Assembly (NCBI RefSeq): GCF_028595285.1
Contig: NZ_JAQQXQ010000001.1
Location: 22,308-86,307 of the forward strand
Source of the DNA: Erythrobacter fulvus
GTDB taxonomy: Bacteria > Pseudomonadota > Alphaproteobacteria > Sphingomonadales > Sphingomonadaceae
Direction: 5' to 3'
DNA length: 64,000 bases
Shown: positions 20,561-53,937 of the stretch, piece by piece
Position numbering within the stretch: the first letter of the stretch is position 1
Layout of the letters: each line of letters opens with the position of its first letter
The notes under the pieces: generated by a model
Seen by the model: only the letters and a program-made list of their open reading frames with translations
Databases searched by the model: none
What the model was told of the DNA's origin: nothing
Made by a program: the position numbers and the translations under genes

Positions 20561-21411
20561 AGGCTGTCTCCGATCCGGTTCCAGCGCGCGGCGGAGAACC
20601 ACGTCCAGGGCTTGATCCATTCGGCGCTGCCGTCGGTCGACCAGACGATGATCCCGGCGCGGCCCACCAGCCGTTCAAGCGGAACCATGCCCACCGCATC
20701 GCCTGCTGCGGCCGGCCAGCGGCTGTCGCGCGAATTGTCGCGGTTGTCGCCCATCACGAACATCGCGCCTTCCGGCACGGTTACGGGAGCGAAACTGTCG
20801 CCCGGGGTCAGGCCAAAATCGAGCACTCCGTAAGCCTTCCCGCCCGGCAGGGTCTCGCGGAAACGCGCATAGCGGCAGGCCGTGCGCCCGTCTTCCAGCC
20901 GTGCCGCATCACCGCCCCATTCACAGCCCGTGTTGGGGGACATGGGGATAAGGAAATCGGACATCCGCTCGCGCGAAACAAGCTTGCCGTTCAGCACCAC
21001 CTGACCGCCGATCACCGCGACTTTATCGCCCGGCAGGCCGATCACCCGCTTGATATAGTCGCGCCCGTCGACAGGGTGCTTGAAGATCACGATATCGCCG
21101 CGTTCGGGGATCTGGGCCAGCACGCGCCCTGCGGGCAAGGGCAGATCGAACGGCAGCGAGTGGCGCGAATAGCCATAGGGCCATTTTGCGGCGAGCAGAT
21201 AGTCGCCGTTCATCAGCCGCGGCAGCATGCTTTCCGACGGAATCGAAAAGGGCGAGAACACCAGCGTCCGCAGAACCAGCACCGCCAGCAGCAGCTTTAT
21301 CATCAGCCAGATAAAGCTGCCGGGCCTGTCACCATCGCGCGCGGTCCCCGGCGCGCCCCCTTGCGCGGCAGGCATCATCGCCTCTGCGAGAGATTGGCTC
21401 TTAACATCCAT
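20557..21411 (-). CDS. lepB: Signal peptidase I
   Basis: A 284-residue inner-membrane serine protease that cuts signal peptides from exported proteins. One membrane helix (about 33-52, IWLMIKLLLAVLVLRTLVF) leads into FSIPSESMLPRL with the catalytic Ser; the general-base Lys is in RDYIKRVIGLPGD; the C-terminal box is MGDNRDNSRDSR. Length is normal. First gene of the lepB-rnc-era group and divergent from pgi, with only 49 bases between the two starts, so both promoters must be packed into or beside the coding regions. Confidence 0.97.
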   Translation of the reverse strand: MDVKSQSLAEAMMPAAQGGAPGTARDGDRPGSFIWLMIKLLLAVLVLRTLVFSPFSIPSESMLPRLMNGDYLLAAKWPYGYSRHSLPFDLPLPAGRVLAQIPERGDIVIFKHPVDGRDYIKRVIGLPGDKVAVIGGQVVLNGKLVSRERMSDFLIPMSPNTGCEWGGDAARLEDGRTACRYARFRETLPGGKAYGVLDFGLTPGDSFAPVTVPEGAMFVMGDNRDNSRDSRWPAAAGDAVGMVPLERLVGRAGIIVWSTDGSAEWIKPWTWFSAARWNRIGDSL

Positions 21412-32012: not shown

Positions 32013-32075
32013 CGTCACCCCAGCGAAAGCTGGGGCCTAGGGCGGCAAGAGATGCCAGCTTTCGCTGGCATGACG
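32013..32075. repeat. REPIN-like pair of inverted GAAA-loop hairpins
   Basis: Two hairpins face each other: CCCCAGC-GAAA-GCTGGGG (32018-32035) and ATGCCAGC-TTTC-GCTGGCAT (32052-32071). The second is the mirror-oriented copy, since its loop is GAAA on the other strand. The outer edges CGTCA and TGACG are also inverted. This is the layout of a REP doublet (REPIN). It fills the 93-base gap between the hydratase and mutase genes. Confidence 0.75.
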
Positions 32076-37398: not shown

Positions 37399-37839
37399 AT
37401 GCGTAAAACACTTATGATCGCTGCGGCATTTGCAATGCCGTTGACTGCTGCACCAGCATTGGCTGACAATCACATGGAAGCGGAAGCTCCAAAGCAAGCC
37501 AACCTGGACTGGTACGAAATCAACTACACGCGGTATCATGCTGGTAAGGTTGGGGAAGCTCGCCAAATGCAGGAAGTTTTCAAGGAAATCAGCGTAAAAG
37601 TTGGCTTGGAACTGCCTATGATCTTCCACATGAATTCCGGCGAATGGCACACGATGCTCGCCAGAAAGATGCCCGGCGGGATCGCTCAGATGGGCTGGGA
37701 AAGCAATCCGAATGGCCGGAAATGGTGGGCAGGATTGGTTGAGCATACGGGCAGCGAGGAAGCAGCCAACGAATATTGGCAAAAATATCAAAGCCTGATT
37801 GCGGACCAGAAAGAAGAGGTCGGGCACATCGACCGGTAA
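37399..37839 (+). CDS. Exported protein of unknown function in an A+T-rich island
   Basis: A 146-residue protein with a signal peptide (MRKTLMIAAAFAMPLTAAPA, cleavage near ALA at residue 22). The mature chain is mostly helical and polar, with several Trp residues (DWYEINYTRYHAGKVGEARQ, GEWHTMLARKMPGG, NPNGRKWWAGL), and has no cysteine. I do not recognise a family. GGGGGG lies 6 bases before the ATG, a strong ribosome site. Gene and the 165-base gap before it are clearly richer in A+T than the rest of the window, which hints at transfer or a special promoter. It precedes pccA by 100 bases. Confidence 0.7.
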   Translation: MRKTLMIAAAFAMPLTAAPALADNHMEAEAPKQANLDWYEINYTRYHAGKVGEARQMQEVFKEISVKVGLELPMIFHMNSGEWHTMLARKMPGGIAQMGWESNPNGRKWWAGLVEHTGSEEAANEYWQKYQSLIADQKEEVGHIDR

Positions 37840-37882
37840 TAGCCCGCTAGTCTATTTGCGAGCCTGACTTGGCTCTCTTGAT

Positions 37883-37939
37883 ACGGGCCTCCGACCACGG
37901 CATAGGCGTATTACGCAAATGCCACAGCCGGAGGCCCGT
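37883..37939 (+). promoter_or_regulatory. Long nested hairpin covering the pccA ribosome site
   Basis: ACGGGCCTCCG (37883-37893) is the exact reverse complement of CGGAGGCCCGT (37929-37939). Inside it, GGCA/TGCC and GCGT/ACGC stems nest around a three-base loop, with symmetric internal loops of 5+5 and 3+3 bases. The right arm holds GGAGG, the ribosome site for the TTG at 37940. No T run follows, so it is not a plain terminator. Confidence 0.6.
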
Positions 37940-39994
37940 TTGTTCTCGAAAATCCTGATTGCCAACCGCGGCGAGATCGCCTGCCGGGTCATTACCACCG
38001 CGCGGAAAATGGGTATCAAGACCGTCGCGGTCTATTCCGATGCCGATGCGCGCGCGCCCTTCGTGAAAATGGCCGACGAGGCGGTGCATATCGGCCCGTC
38101 GCCTGCGGCAGAATCCTATCTGATCCCCGAAAAGATCATCGCCGCGTGCAAGCAGACCGGGGCAGAGGCGGTGCACCCGGGCTATGGCTTCCTGTCCGAG
38201 CGTGCGAGCTTCGTCGAGGCGCTTGAGGCCGAGGGCATCGCCTTCATCGGCCCGCCGGTGAACGCAATTGCTGCGATGGGCGACAAGATCGAATCCAAAA
38301 AGCTGGCCAAGGAAGCGGGCGTCAATGTCGTGCCCGGCTTCGTCGGCGAAATCGAGGATACCGAGCACGCGGTGCGGATCGCCAACCAGATCGGCTATCC
38401 GGTGATGATGAAGGCCTCTGCCGGTGGCGGGGGCAAGGGAATGCGCCTTGCGTATAGCGAGGCTGACGTGCGCGAGGGCTTTGAAAGCGTGAAGCGCGAG
38501 GGGCTCAACTCCTTCGGCGATGACCGCGTCTTTATCGAGAAGTTCATTCTCAACCCGCGCCATATCGAAATCCAGATCCTCGGCGACAAGCACGGCAACA
38601 TCCTCTACCTCAACGAGCGCGAATGTTCGATCCAGCGCCGACACCAGAAGGTGGTCGAGGAAGCGCCGTCGCCCTTCGTGACCCCCAAGATGCGCAAGGC
38701 GATGGGCGAGCAATGCGTCGCCCTTTCGCGGGCGGTCGGATATCACAGCGCGGGCACGGTCGAACTGATCGTGAGCGGCGCGGACCCTACGGGGGAAAGC
38801 TTCTACTTCCTTGAAATGAACACCCGGCTTCAGGTCGAACACCCCGTCACTGAAGCGATCACCGGCATCGATCTGGTCGAGCAGATGATCCGCGTCGCGG
38901 CCGGGGAAAAGCTCAGCATGACGCAGGACGATATCGGCATTCACGGCTGGTCGATCGAAAACCGCGTCTATGCCGAAGACCCCTATCGCGGCTTCCTGCC
39001 GTCGACCGGACGCCTTACCCACTATGCCCCGCCGATCCCCGGCTGGAGCGAGGACGAGACTGTCGCAGGCCTGCCGCGGCGCGGTGTCGCGCGCGGCAGC
39101 GGATCGGTGCGCGTCGATGACGGGGTTTACGAAGGCGGCGAGGTGTCGATGTTCTACGACCCGATGATCGCCAAGCTGATTACCTGGGCACCGACCCGCG
39201 ACGAGGCGGCGGATCTGCAGATCGAGGCGCTCGACAATTTCCGCATCAAGGGGCTCGGCCACAATGTCGATTTCCTGTCCGCGATCATGCAGCACCCGCG
39301 TTTCCGTTCGGGGGAACTGACCACCGGCTTCATCGCCGAGGAATATCCCGAAGGGTTCGAGGGCGCGGCAACGTCGGAAGATTTCCGCCGCATTCTCGCG
39401 GCTGTGTGCGCGGGCAACGAATACACCCTGCAATCGCGCTCGCGCCGCATTTCGGGCCAGCTCGACGGGCCGTTGCCGGTCGCCAGCGAATGGCTGGTAA
39501 AATTGGGCGACGAACGCTTCGAAGTGGTGCTCGGCGATGGTCATGCGATGGTCGACGGGGTGCGGGTCGAAGGTCACTGCGACTGGCAACCCGGCATGGT
39601 CCACGCTGAAGCCACCGGCAAGATCGGTGACGGTGAGGAAGTGCGTTTCGGCCTGATCGTCGAGCGCAACGGCAACCAGTGGAAGGTCACGACCCGCGGC
39701 GCTGCGCATAGCGCGCTGGTGCTGCCGCTGCGCCTTGCCCGCCATGAAAGCCTGATGCTCGAAAAGGAGCCGCCGGATCTTTCGCGCATGCTGATCTGCC
39801 CGATGCCGGGGATGCTGGTGAAGCTCCACGTCGCTGCGGGCGAGACCGTGCAGCCGGGCCAGCCGCTGGCCACGGTGGAGGCGATGAAGATGGAAAACAT
39901 CCTGCGCGCCGAAAAGGAAGGCGTGATCGCGAAGATCAACGCTGCCGAAGGCGAGAGTCTGGCGGTCGACGCCGTGATCCTCGAACTGGAATAA
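37940..39994 (+). CDS. pccA: Propionyl-CoA/acetyl-CoA carboxylase alpha subunit (biotin carboxylase plus biotin carrier)
   Basis: About 684 residues from TTG 37940. The biotin carboxylase part starts FSKILIANRGEIACRVITTA and includes the ATP loop KASAGGGGKGMRLA and EMNTRLQVEHPVTE. A middle PCC-type linker domain follows, and the last 75 residues are a biotinyl carrier with the biotin Lys in VEAMKMENILRAE. It carboxylates its biotin and hands CO2 to PccB (7.5 kb upstream). TTG 37940 is preferred because GGAGG precedes it and it gives the usual N-terminus; ATG 37919 is in frame but has no ribosome site. The start lies at the base of a long hairpin. Confidence 0.94.
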   Translation: MFSKILIANRGEIACRVITTARKMGIKTVAVYSDADARAPFVKMADEAVHIGPSPAAESYLIPEKIIAACKQTGAEAVHPGYGFLSERASFVEALEAEGIAFIGPPVNAIAAMGDKIESKKLAKEAGVNVVPGFVGEIEDTEHAVRIANQIGYPVMMKASAGGGGKGMRLAYSEADVREGFESVKREGLNSFGDDRVFIEKFILNPRHIEIQILGDKHGNILYLNERECSIQRRHQKVVEEAPSPFVTPKMRKAMGEQCVALSRAVGYHSAGTVELIVSGADPTGESFYFLEMNTRLQVEHPVTEAITGIDLVEQMIRVAAGEKLSMTQDDIGIHGWSIENRVYAEDPYRGFLPSTGRLTHYAPPIPGWSEDETVAGLPRRGVARGSGSVRVDDGVYEGGEVSMFYDPMIAKLITWAPTRDEAADLQIEALDNFRIKGLGHNVDFLSAIMQHPRFRSGELTTGFIAEEYPEGFEGAATSEDFRRILAAVCAGNEYTLQSRSRRISGQLDGPLPVASEWLVKLGDERFEVVLGDGHAMVDGVRVEGHCDWQPGMVHAEATGKIGDGEEVRFGLIVERNGNQWKVTTRGAAHSALVLPLRLARHESLMLEKEPPDLSRMLICPMPGMLVKLHVAAGETVQPGQPLATVEAMKMENILRAEKEGVIAKINAAEGESLAVDAVILELE

Positions 39995-49382: not shown

Positions 49383-49426
49383 CGGCCGCAGCGCGCTTTT
49401 TTCGAATCTGCGGCGCACAAACGAAA

Positions 49427-49451
49427 AGCGGCGGGGAAATTCCCCGCCGCT
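49427..49451 (-). terminator. Terminator of the leftward Flp pilin gene
   Basis: A perfect 10-base stem AGCGGCGGGG/CCCCGCCGCT with loop AAATT. Read leftward it is followed by TTTTCGTTTG, so it suits the pilin gene at 49476-49658. It also lies downstream of the M48 gene. Confidence 0.8.
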
Positions 49452-49475
49452 TCCCGTTGGTAAAGACGATGCGAC

Positions 49476-50531: not shown

Positions 50532-50608
50532 GCACCCGTAGCTCAGCTGGATAGAGCACCAGACTACGAATCTGGGGGTCAGAGGTTCGAATCCTTTCGG
50601 GTGCGCCA
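50532..50608 (+). tRNA. tRNA-Arg (anticodon ACG)
   Basis: A 77-base cloverleaf. The acceptor stem GCACCCG pairs with CGGGTGC, the D arm reads GCTCAGCTGGATAGAGC, the anticodon loop is CTACGAA with anticodon ACG at 50576-50578, the T loop is GGTTCGAATCC, and the 3' CCA is encoded. Its A34 is normally edited to inosine by TadA to read CGU, CGC and CGA. No integrase gene is nearby. Confidence 0.97.
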
Positions 50609-50645
50609 ACAACGCCCGCTCCTCGCAAGAGGGGCGGGCGTTGTT
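50608..50645 (+). terminator. Strong hairpin just after tRNA-Arg
   Basis: AACAACGCCCGC (50608-50619) pairs perfectly with GCGGGCGTTGTT (50634-50645); inside, CCTC-GCAA-GAGG adds a tetraloop stem. Only a weak T-rich stretch (TTGTTGGTTC) follows. Likely the tRNA transcript end or a 3' processing signal. Confidence 0.7.
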
Positions 50646-50691
50646 GGTTCGGGAGCTTCGTTCTCTCGCTGCGTGGCCTCCGGGAAGGGCG

Positions 50692-53900: not shown

Positions 53901-53937
53901 AAAAGGGGCGCTTTCCGCGATGGAAAGCGCCCCTTTT
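53901..53937. terminator. Bidirectional terminator between cytochrome b561 and peroxiredoxin genes
   Basis: A perfect 16-base stem, AAAAGGGGCGCTTTCC with GGAAAGCGCCCCTTTT, around a GCGAT loop. It has A and T runs at both ends, so it can stop transcripts from both converging genes. Confidence 0.93.

Follow-up and report, generated by a model that had tools for sequence, protein, structure and literature searches.

The transposase leaders of IS10, IS50 and IS200 fold only in read-through RNA, where they sequester the Shine-Dalgarno (SD) sequence or the start codon. For gene e (lysozyme) of phage T4, and also for I-TevI, PMC3014915 describes long early transcripts that hide the SD sequence in a hairpin, while transcripts from the gene's own promoters are missing the 5' portion and translate well; related phages carry a late promoter in the stretch that encodes the 5' strand of the hairpin. 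In dksA-gluQ-rs of Shigella flexneri and its relatives, a terminator-like stem overlaps the start of the downstream gene, and its mutation raised downstream expression (PMC3542578). Both the logic of gene e and a terminator lying over the start of the next gene are known, but within the accessible portions of the literature searched on promoter-terminator overlap, read-through and sequestering hairpins (including PMC3890552, PMC8450116, PMC3542578 and PMC7566282) neither the nested arrangement reported here nor its combination at a bacterial metabolic gene, tracking the upstream gene, was found, which is no proof of absence.

The locus considered here lies in the window, that is, the whole stretch of 64,000 nucleotides of Erythrobacter fulvus DNA that was analysed, and joins the end of an upstream gene, given the ad hoc label UpsA, to the start of pccA. 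Its features are as follows.

37399-37839, plus strand: UpsA, an open reading frame of 146 amino acids with a signal-peptide-like start (judged by eye), whose presence predicts the hairpin
37878-37883, plus strand: -35 element TTGATA of the putative pccA promoter, its TTG at a fixed distance from the -10 in 85/105 loci, with a match in tRNA promoters
37883-37893, plus strand: 5' arm of the outer stem, within the promoter spacer (complementarity and fold)
37899-37903/37919-37923 and 37906-37909/37913-37916, plus strand: nested inner stems (fold)
37901-37906, plus strand: putative -10 element CATAGG, inside the hairpin (GGCATAG near-invariant in 85 loci; spacing of tRNA promoters)
37913 (+/- about 2 nt), plus strand: predicted transcription start of pccA, in the loop or apex of the hairpin, from general knowledge of sigma70 promoters
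37929-37939, plus strand: 3' arm of the outer stem, carrying the pccA SD sequence (complementarity and fold)
37930-37934, plus strand: likely SD sequence GGAGG of pccA, 5 nt 5' of the TTG and inside the 3' arm, invariant in 23 aligned hairpin sequences
37939-37946, plus strand: T-rich stretch TTTGTTCT, following the stem and taking in the pccA start codon, a candidate terminator U-tract (T counts in UpsA-pccA loci)
37940-39994, plus strand: pccA, propionyl-CoA carboxylase alpha subunit, with a TTG start (Pfam Biotin_carb_N, CPSase_L_D2, Biotin_carb_C, PCC_BT and Biotin_lipoyl)

The reading that we favour, with a probability of roughly 0.7, sees in the hairpin a 3' end of terminator type that belongs to UpsA, is superimposed on the promoter, the SD sequence and the start codon of pccA, and insulates pccA. 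As in T4 gene e, the SD sequence of pccA is predicted to be hidden in RNA derived from upstream, and RNA from its own putative promoter would lack the 5' portion; unlike gene e, pccA is a bacterial metabolic gene, and its hairpin resembles the terminator of the upstream gene, is followed by T-rich sequence that covers the start codon, and appears and disappears together with UpsA. As at dksA-gluQ-rs, the stem stands between two co-directional genes, here UpsA and pccA, and overlaps the start of the downstream one, but gluQ-rs is there described as having no promoter of its own, whereas that of pccA appears to lie inside the hairpin. The sequestering of the SD sequence or the start in RNA coming from outside is shared with the IS10, IS50 and IS200 leaders, which differ in belonging to mobile elements.

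The two arms of the hairpin, 37883-37893 and 37929-37939 (ACGGGCCTCCG / CGGAGGCCCGT), are exactly complementary over 11 bp and are separated by 35 nt, and in the predicted fold of the plus strand (37878-37949; -36.6 kcal/mol, z -5.63, with 0/200 shuffles equally stable) this outer stem encloses nested stems with symmetric internal loops, so that the structure first described by the sequence-only reading, which had been obtained from the letters without database searches, is borne out by sequence and fold alike. The same reading had seen in it more order than chance would give, and this holds for the whole fold and for its conservation; the 11-bp perfect arm by itself is only mildly unusual, since the window holds six perfect inverted repeats (arm of at least 11, spacer 3-40) and each of six random sequences 1-4. 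The minus strand of the region folds more stably than the plus strand (-45.3 kcal/mol, z -7.5), because the inner mismatches of the window sequence are A-C on the plus strand. A search of the own genome with a 106-base query returned only the hairpin site and its own reverse complement, and a plasmid collection gave zero matches. Just 5' of the -35 element there is also a small stem, GAGCC/GGCTC at 37860-37875, of which the relative L004 has a longer version made of other bases.

In the comparison within the genus, the region was matched in 113 of 114 genomes; five genomes with weak matches (G028, G049, G058, G059 and G088) were left out, 108 loci were fetched and, after exclusion of three with no pccA start (L108-L110), 105 were parsed. 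In 85 of these, which are loci sharing ancestry, the pattern TTG-N18-(G)GCATAG (equivalently, TTG-N20-CATAGG) precedes pccA with a single inner spacing, though 17-19 had been allowed; the other 20 had no such box within 110 nt and stand outside the 85-locus counts. The TTG of the box lies 58-72 nt 5' of the pccA start codon, GGCATAG is nearly invariant across the 85 loci, and the box is unchanged with or without the hairpin. In the window, pccA begins at TTG 37940-37942 (LFSKILIANRGEIA), and the start codon of the 85 boxed loci is TTG in 75, ATG in 8 and GTG in 2; since the relatives support TTG 37940 as the start, GGAGG at 37930-37934 is likely to be the SD sequence, and its burial in the 3' arm just before the start, as had been claimed, stands. 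An in-frame ATG at 37919, offered by the open reading frame list as the pccA start, was discarded, not being retained in most relatives. The PccA protein has named relatives in Erythrobacter tepidarius, Porphyrobacter and Qipengyuania, among others (74 of 80 named loci inspected).

The fixed box has the features of a sigma70 promoter, namely a -35 TTG, a 17-nt spacer and an A at the second position of the -10 (TTGATA-N17-CATAGG). According to Myers et al. 2021 (PMC8407463), more than 80% of the sigma70 promoters of N. aromaticivorans have no T at -7, and the -35 TTG is well conserved in most species. Moreover, TTG-N20-TA was found upstream of 10 of the 30 tRNA genes of this genome that were used (out of 44, some being tandem and needing no promoter of their own), compared with 0-3 at 12 other spacings and with a mean of 0.42 and a maximum of 3 in shuffles, and two of these genes have TTG-N20-TATAGG and TTG-N20-AATAGG. 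The box is thus probably pccA's own promoter, laid out like the tRNA promoters of the same genome. In two genomes, G008 (locus L206) and G054 (locus L309), it stands in front of a further apparent coding stretch, which separates it from pccA (starting with ATG there); such a position suits a promoter but not a leader specific to pccA. As a point against the promoter reading, the exact box TTG-N18-GGCATAGSC was not enriched elsewhere in the 114 genomes, giving few matches per genome, many of them at pccA; an N23 control pattern gave more matches than the N18 box, apparently from in-phase coding sequence, which makes that comparison uninformative, and the tRNA promoters served in its place. Furthermore, the -35 reads TTGAT in 21/21 loci with UpsA and in 4/64 without it, so the promoter seems to change along with the upstream gene.

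At sigma70 promoters, transcription starts seven nt 3' of the last base of the -10. The predicted pccA start would accordingly fall at 37913, in the loop, giving a leader of 27 nt in the window and of 23-37 nt across the 85 loci, and pccA RNA from its own promoter would be without the 5' arm. The sequence-only reading, which saw in the hairpin a possible translation-control element of pccA, had named a transcript start inside the hairpin as evidence against itself; the conserved promoter-like box predicts just such a start.

The UpsA family, which gave zero Pfam matches at E 0.001 when searched with the window's UpsA, occurs in 36 of the 114 genomes of the genus and, as assigned by profile, stands directly upstream of pccA in 21 of the 85 boxed loci. 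In the window, UpsA is co-directional with pccA, and its stop codon lies 38 nt before the -35 and 43 nt before the outer stem. Arm pairing was present in 21/21 loci with UpsA (-23.2 to -34.7 kcal/mol), while 62 of the 64 loci without it reached -21.4 or weaker, the exceptions being L087 (-23.6) and L082 (-27.2). The genome of the latter, G039, has no detectable UpsA, and the box is kept there; its fold (-29.2, compared with -38.9 in the similar L067) is weaker, as would be expected of a decaying remnant. Shared ancestry was taken into account with a pccA tree built from 336-450 nt per locus of one gene fragment, a short and partly unresolved basis that shows 14 changes of the UpsA label and 16 of the hairpin. 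Supported branches provide 8 independent pairs; on average, hairpin and UpsA go the same way in 7.9 of them and opposite ways in 0 (median p 0.008). In these sequence comparisons, the hairpin goes with the upstream gene UpsA and not with pccA.

The same is seen where the two genes are apart. Behind the stop of UpsA-family genes not adjoining pccA, a stem of at least 8 pairs was found in 19/22 cases, and such a stem with at least 4 T in 8 in 8/22, several of these being classical terminators. They stand at a similar distance 3' of the stop as the pccA hairpin, and differ from it in their shorter loops, in the clear T-run that several have, and in not overlapping a pccA promoter box. In G008 the arms stay beside UpsA though pccA is 1.4 kb off, and the -10 is altered there, to GCGATAGG. 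Outside the genus, a stem of at least 8 pairs is present in each of the 7 loci where UpsA adjoins pccA, but a stem with a T-tract in only 3 of them; L255 among them is without the full outer stem and L258 is a different form. In the loci without UpsA, the neighbours are mostly co-directional and end about 18 nt before the -35, with the hairpin absent, which indicates that protection from read-through is not generally needed. One may guess that high expression of UpsA is the reason for so strong a gene end.

As to its terminator character, the pccA hairpin is a stable GC-rich RNA stem 3' of the UpsA stop, as in intrinsic terminators, and it is followed by the T-rich start region of pccA, which reads TTTGTTCT in the window and TTTGTTTTCC in many relatives. 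A stem of at least 8 pairs followed by at least 4 T in 8 is present in 24 of 28 UpsA-pccA loci, compared with 4% of shuffles, in a region where the same bases encode the pccA start, and for this reason the T-rich stretch is also present where the hairpin is not. A terminator scan confined to loops of 3-8 nt did not list the pccA hairpin, which has 35 nt between its outer arms; in verified Z. mobilis terminators, the stem averages about 11 bp and the loop about 4 nt (PMC7566282). With a score of the d'Aubenton Carafa type, available for 21/21 loci with UpsA and for the 44/64 others in which a stem spans the site, positive values were obtained in 14/21 and 0/44, respectively. Negative values were those of the window (L003, -5.5, with the closing A-T pair counted within the stem), L044 (-2.7), L019 (-8.6), L098 (-15.7), L011 (-28.1), L014 (-37.1) and L017 (-37.6). 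Since 3 of 5 hairpins that follow UpsA-family genes, taken for comparison, are negative as well, the score is a weak guide.

The occlusion of the SD sequence was evaluated by predicted folding of the two kinds of RNA. In the predicted fold, the long read-through RNA pairs the pccA SD sequence, as in the lock of T4 gene e. For the 21 loci with UpsA, the predicted unpaired fraction of SD and start is 0.48 in RNA from the own promoter and 0.21 in read-through RNA, as against 0.45 and 0.41 in the 64 loci without UpsA; it falls below half in 13/21 and 3/64, respectively. The drop predicted for the window is modest, from 0.46 to 0.27.

The mechanism proposed would depend on where the polymerase comes from. 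One arriving from UpsA would copy both arms, so that the stem could fold in the RNA, and as the stem is followed by the T-rich beginning of pccA, transcription from UpsA should end; RNA escaping termination would keep the pccA SD sequence locked in the stem. A polymerase starting at pccA's own promoter would begin at about 37913 in the loop and make RNA without the 5' arm and without the stem, free for elongation and translation. The element would in this way insulate pccA from its neighbour with no ligand involved. Given the weak terminator scores and the SD pairing predictions, insulation from read-through is put first, and the shares of termination and occlusion are left undivided. If this is true, one short sequence acts as terminator, promoter and translation start, and the three roles do not clash, since the starting point of transcription decides the outcome. 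A single gene boundary of about 60 bases, being the terminator of one gene and the promoter, SD sequence and start of the next, would then be read according to the origin of the polymerase, a view to which we incline slightly; since the arrangement comes and goes with the upstream gene in these bacteria, it could be a general and overlooked mode of co-directional packing. The repeated loss of the hairpin along with the upstream gene offers ready-made natural controls. In addition, a hairpin over an SD sequence need not be a riboswitch, and the promoter has to be located before one is proposed.

Among the other explanations, the one that survives best, while still unlikely, takes UpsA and pccA to be co-transcribed and the hairpin to be a regulated switch, an attenuator or SD lock, setting pccA relative to UpsA, with the own promoter playing a minor part. 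The co-directional UpsA, with its stop 38 nt before the -35, and the SD sequence predicted to be hidden in the long RNA would suit it, and dksA-gluQ-rs (PMC3542578) shows that expression of a gene can be reduced by a terminator lying at its start. Nevertheless, the conserved core of the 23 hairpins consists of the promoter box and GGAGG and not of an aptamer-like loop, UpsA-family genes elsewhere are followed by ordinary stems, and the box is kept with and without UpsA.

An RNA regulating pccA specifically in cis, be it a riboswitch, a thermosensor or a protein-binding site, was the first proposal of the sequence-only reading, suggested by the buried SD sequence in front of a gene for a metabolic enzyme. 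It now appears highly improbable, since the strong pairing is missing from 62 of the 85 pccA loci and tracks UpsA, the predicted own transcript of pccA would be without the 5' arm, and Rfam, at the gathering score, has no family at the hairpin, its sole match in the window being a tRNA. Sub-threshold Rfam hits near the site, P35 (minus strand, E 0.67) and sR53 (E 0.56), were read as chance.

Compensatory changes in relatives, the check by which that reading was to be judged, were found, in 23 hairpin sequences (21 of the genus and 2 from Qipengyuania). Since the MAFFT alignment broke the 3' arm with gaps, base pairs were scored in two blocks, one aligned on the box and the other on GGAGG, after L124 and L127 had been moved by one base. 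Over 14 pairs, 87.3% of the cells are standard, compared with 77.4% after shuffling of the 3' letters, and the covariation score is 0.392, compared with 0.235 in shuffles (0/1000 reaching the observed value in either case) and with 0.085-0.188 when the partners were slid by 1-3 columns. Weaker measures gave 7 pairs with double changes, reached by 66/1000 shuffles, and 18 extra pair types, reached by 88/1000. Departures from Watson-Crick pairing in 19 columns, whose cells are not independent, comprise 53 G-U, 22 A-C and 73 others, part of the G-U excess being expected because the fixed GGAGG favours C-to-T changes. Left arms pair with their own right arms at a mean of -29.5, compared with -24.7 with those of others, the own arm being the best partner in only 2/23. 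With a fold far better than shuffles and compensatory and G-U changes in relatives, the hairpin looks like a selected RNA structure.

These data also bear on another alternative, a DNA operator, which the earlier reading had admitted as well: a dimeric regulator of pccA would bind the inverted repeat at the -10. The repeat is centred on the promoter and its inner GCGTATTACGC is a good palindrome; nevertheless, the arm sequences change together between relatives, G-U departures on the plus strand exceed A-C, and most pccA promoters with the same box lack the repeat, so that an operator has very little probability. When imperfect palindromes are corrected by template switching, the two arms can likewise change in concert, but that the near-perfect repeat is such a by-product of mutation without function is scarcely credible, as it leaves unexplained the pairing in 21/21 loci with UpsA and comparable pairing in only 2/64 others.

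In a sample of 298 genomes from the bacterial family, UpsA-family proteins were matched in 32, from 22 of 96 genera, some of the matches being weak and covering the first 30-40 residues only. Besides the hairpin, the window has five perfect inverted repeats whose arms measure 11-16 bp; they lie at 21291-21320, 32020-32068, 49426-49452, 50606-50647 and 53901-53937; the one at 50606 stands directly 3' of the tRNA at 50532-50605 and may be the terminator of that tRNA.
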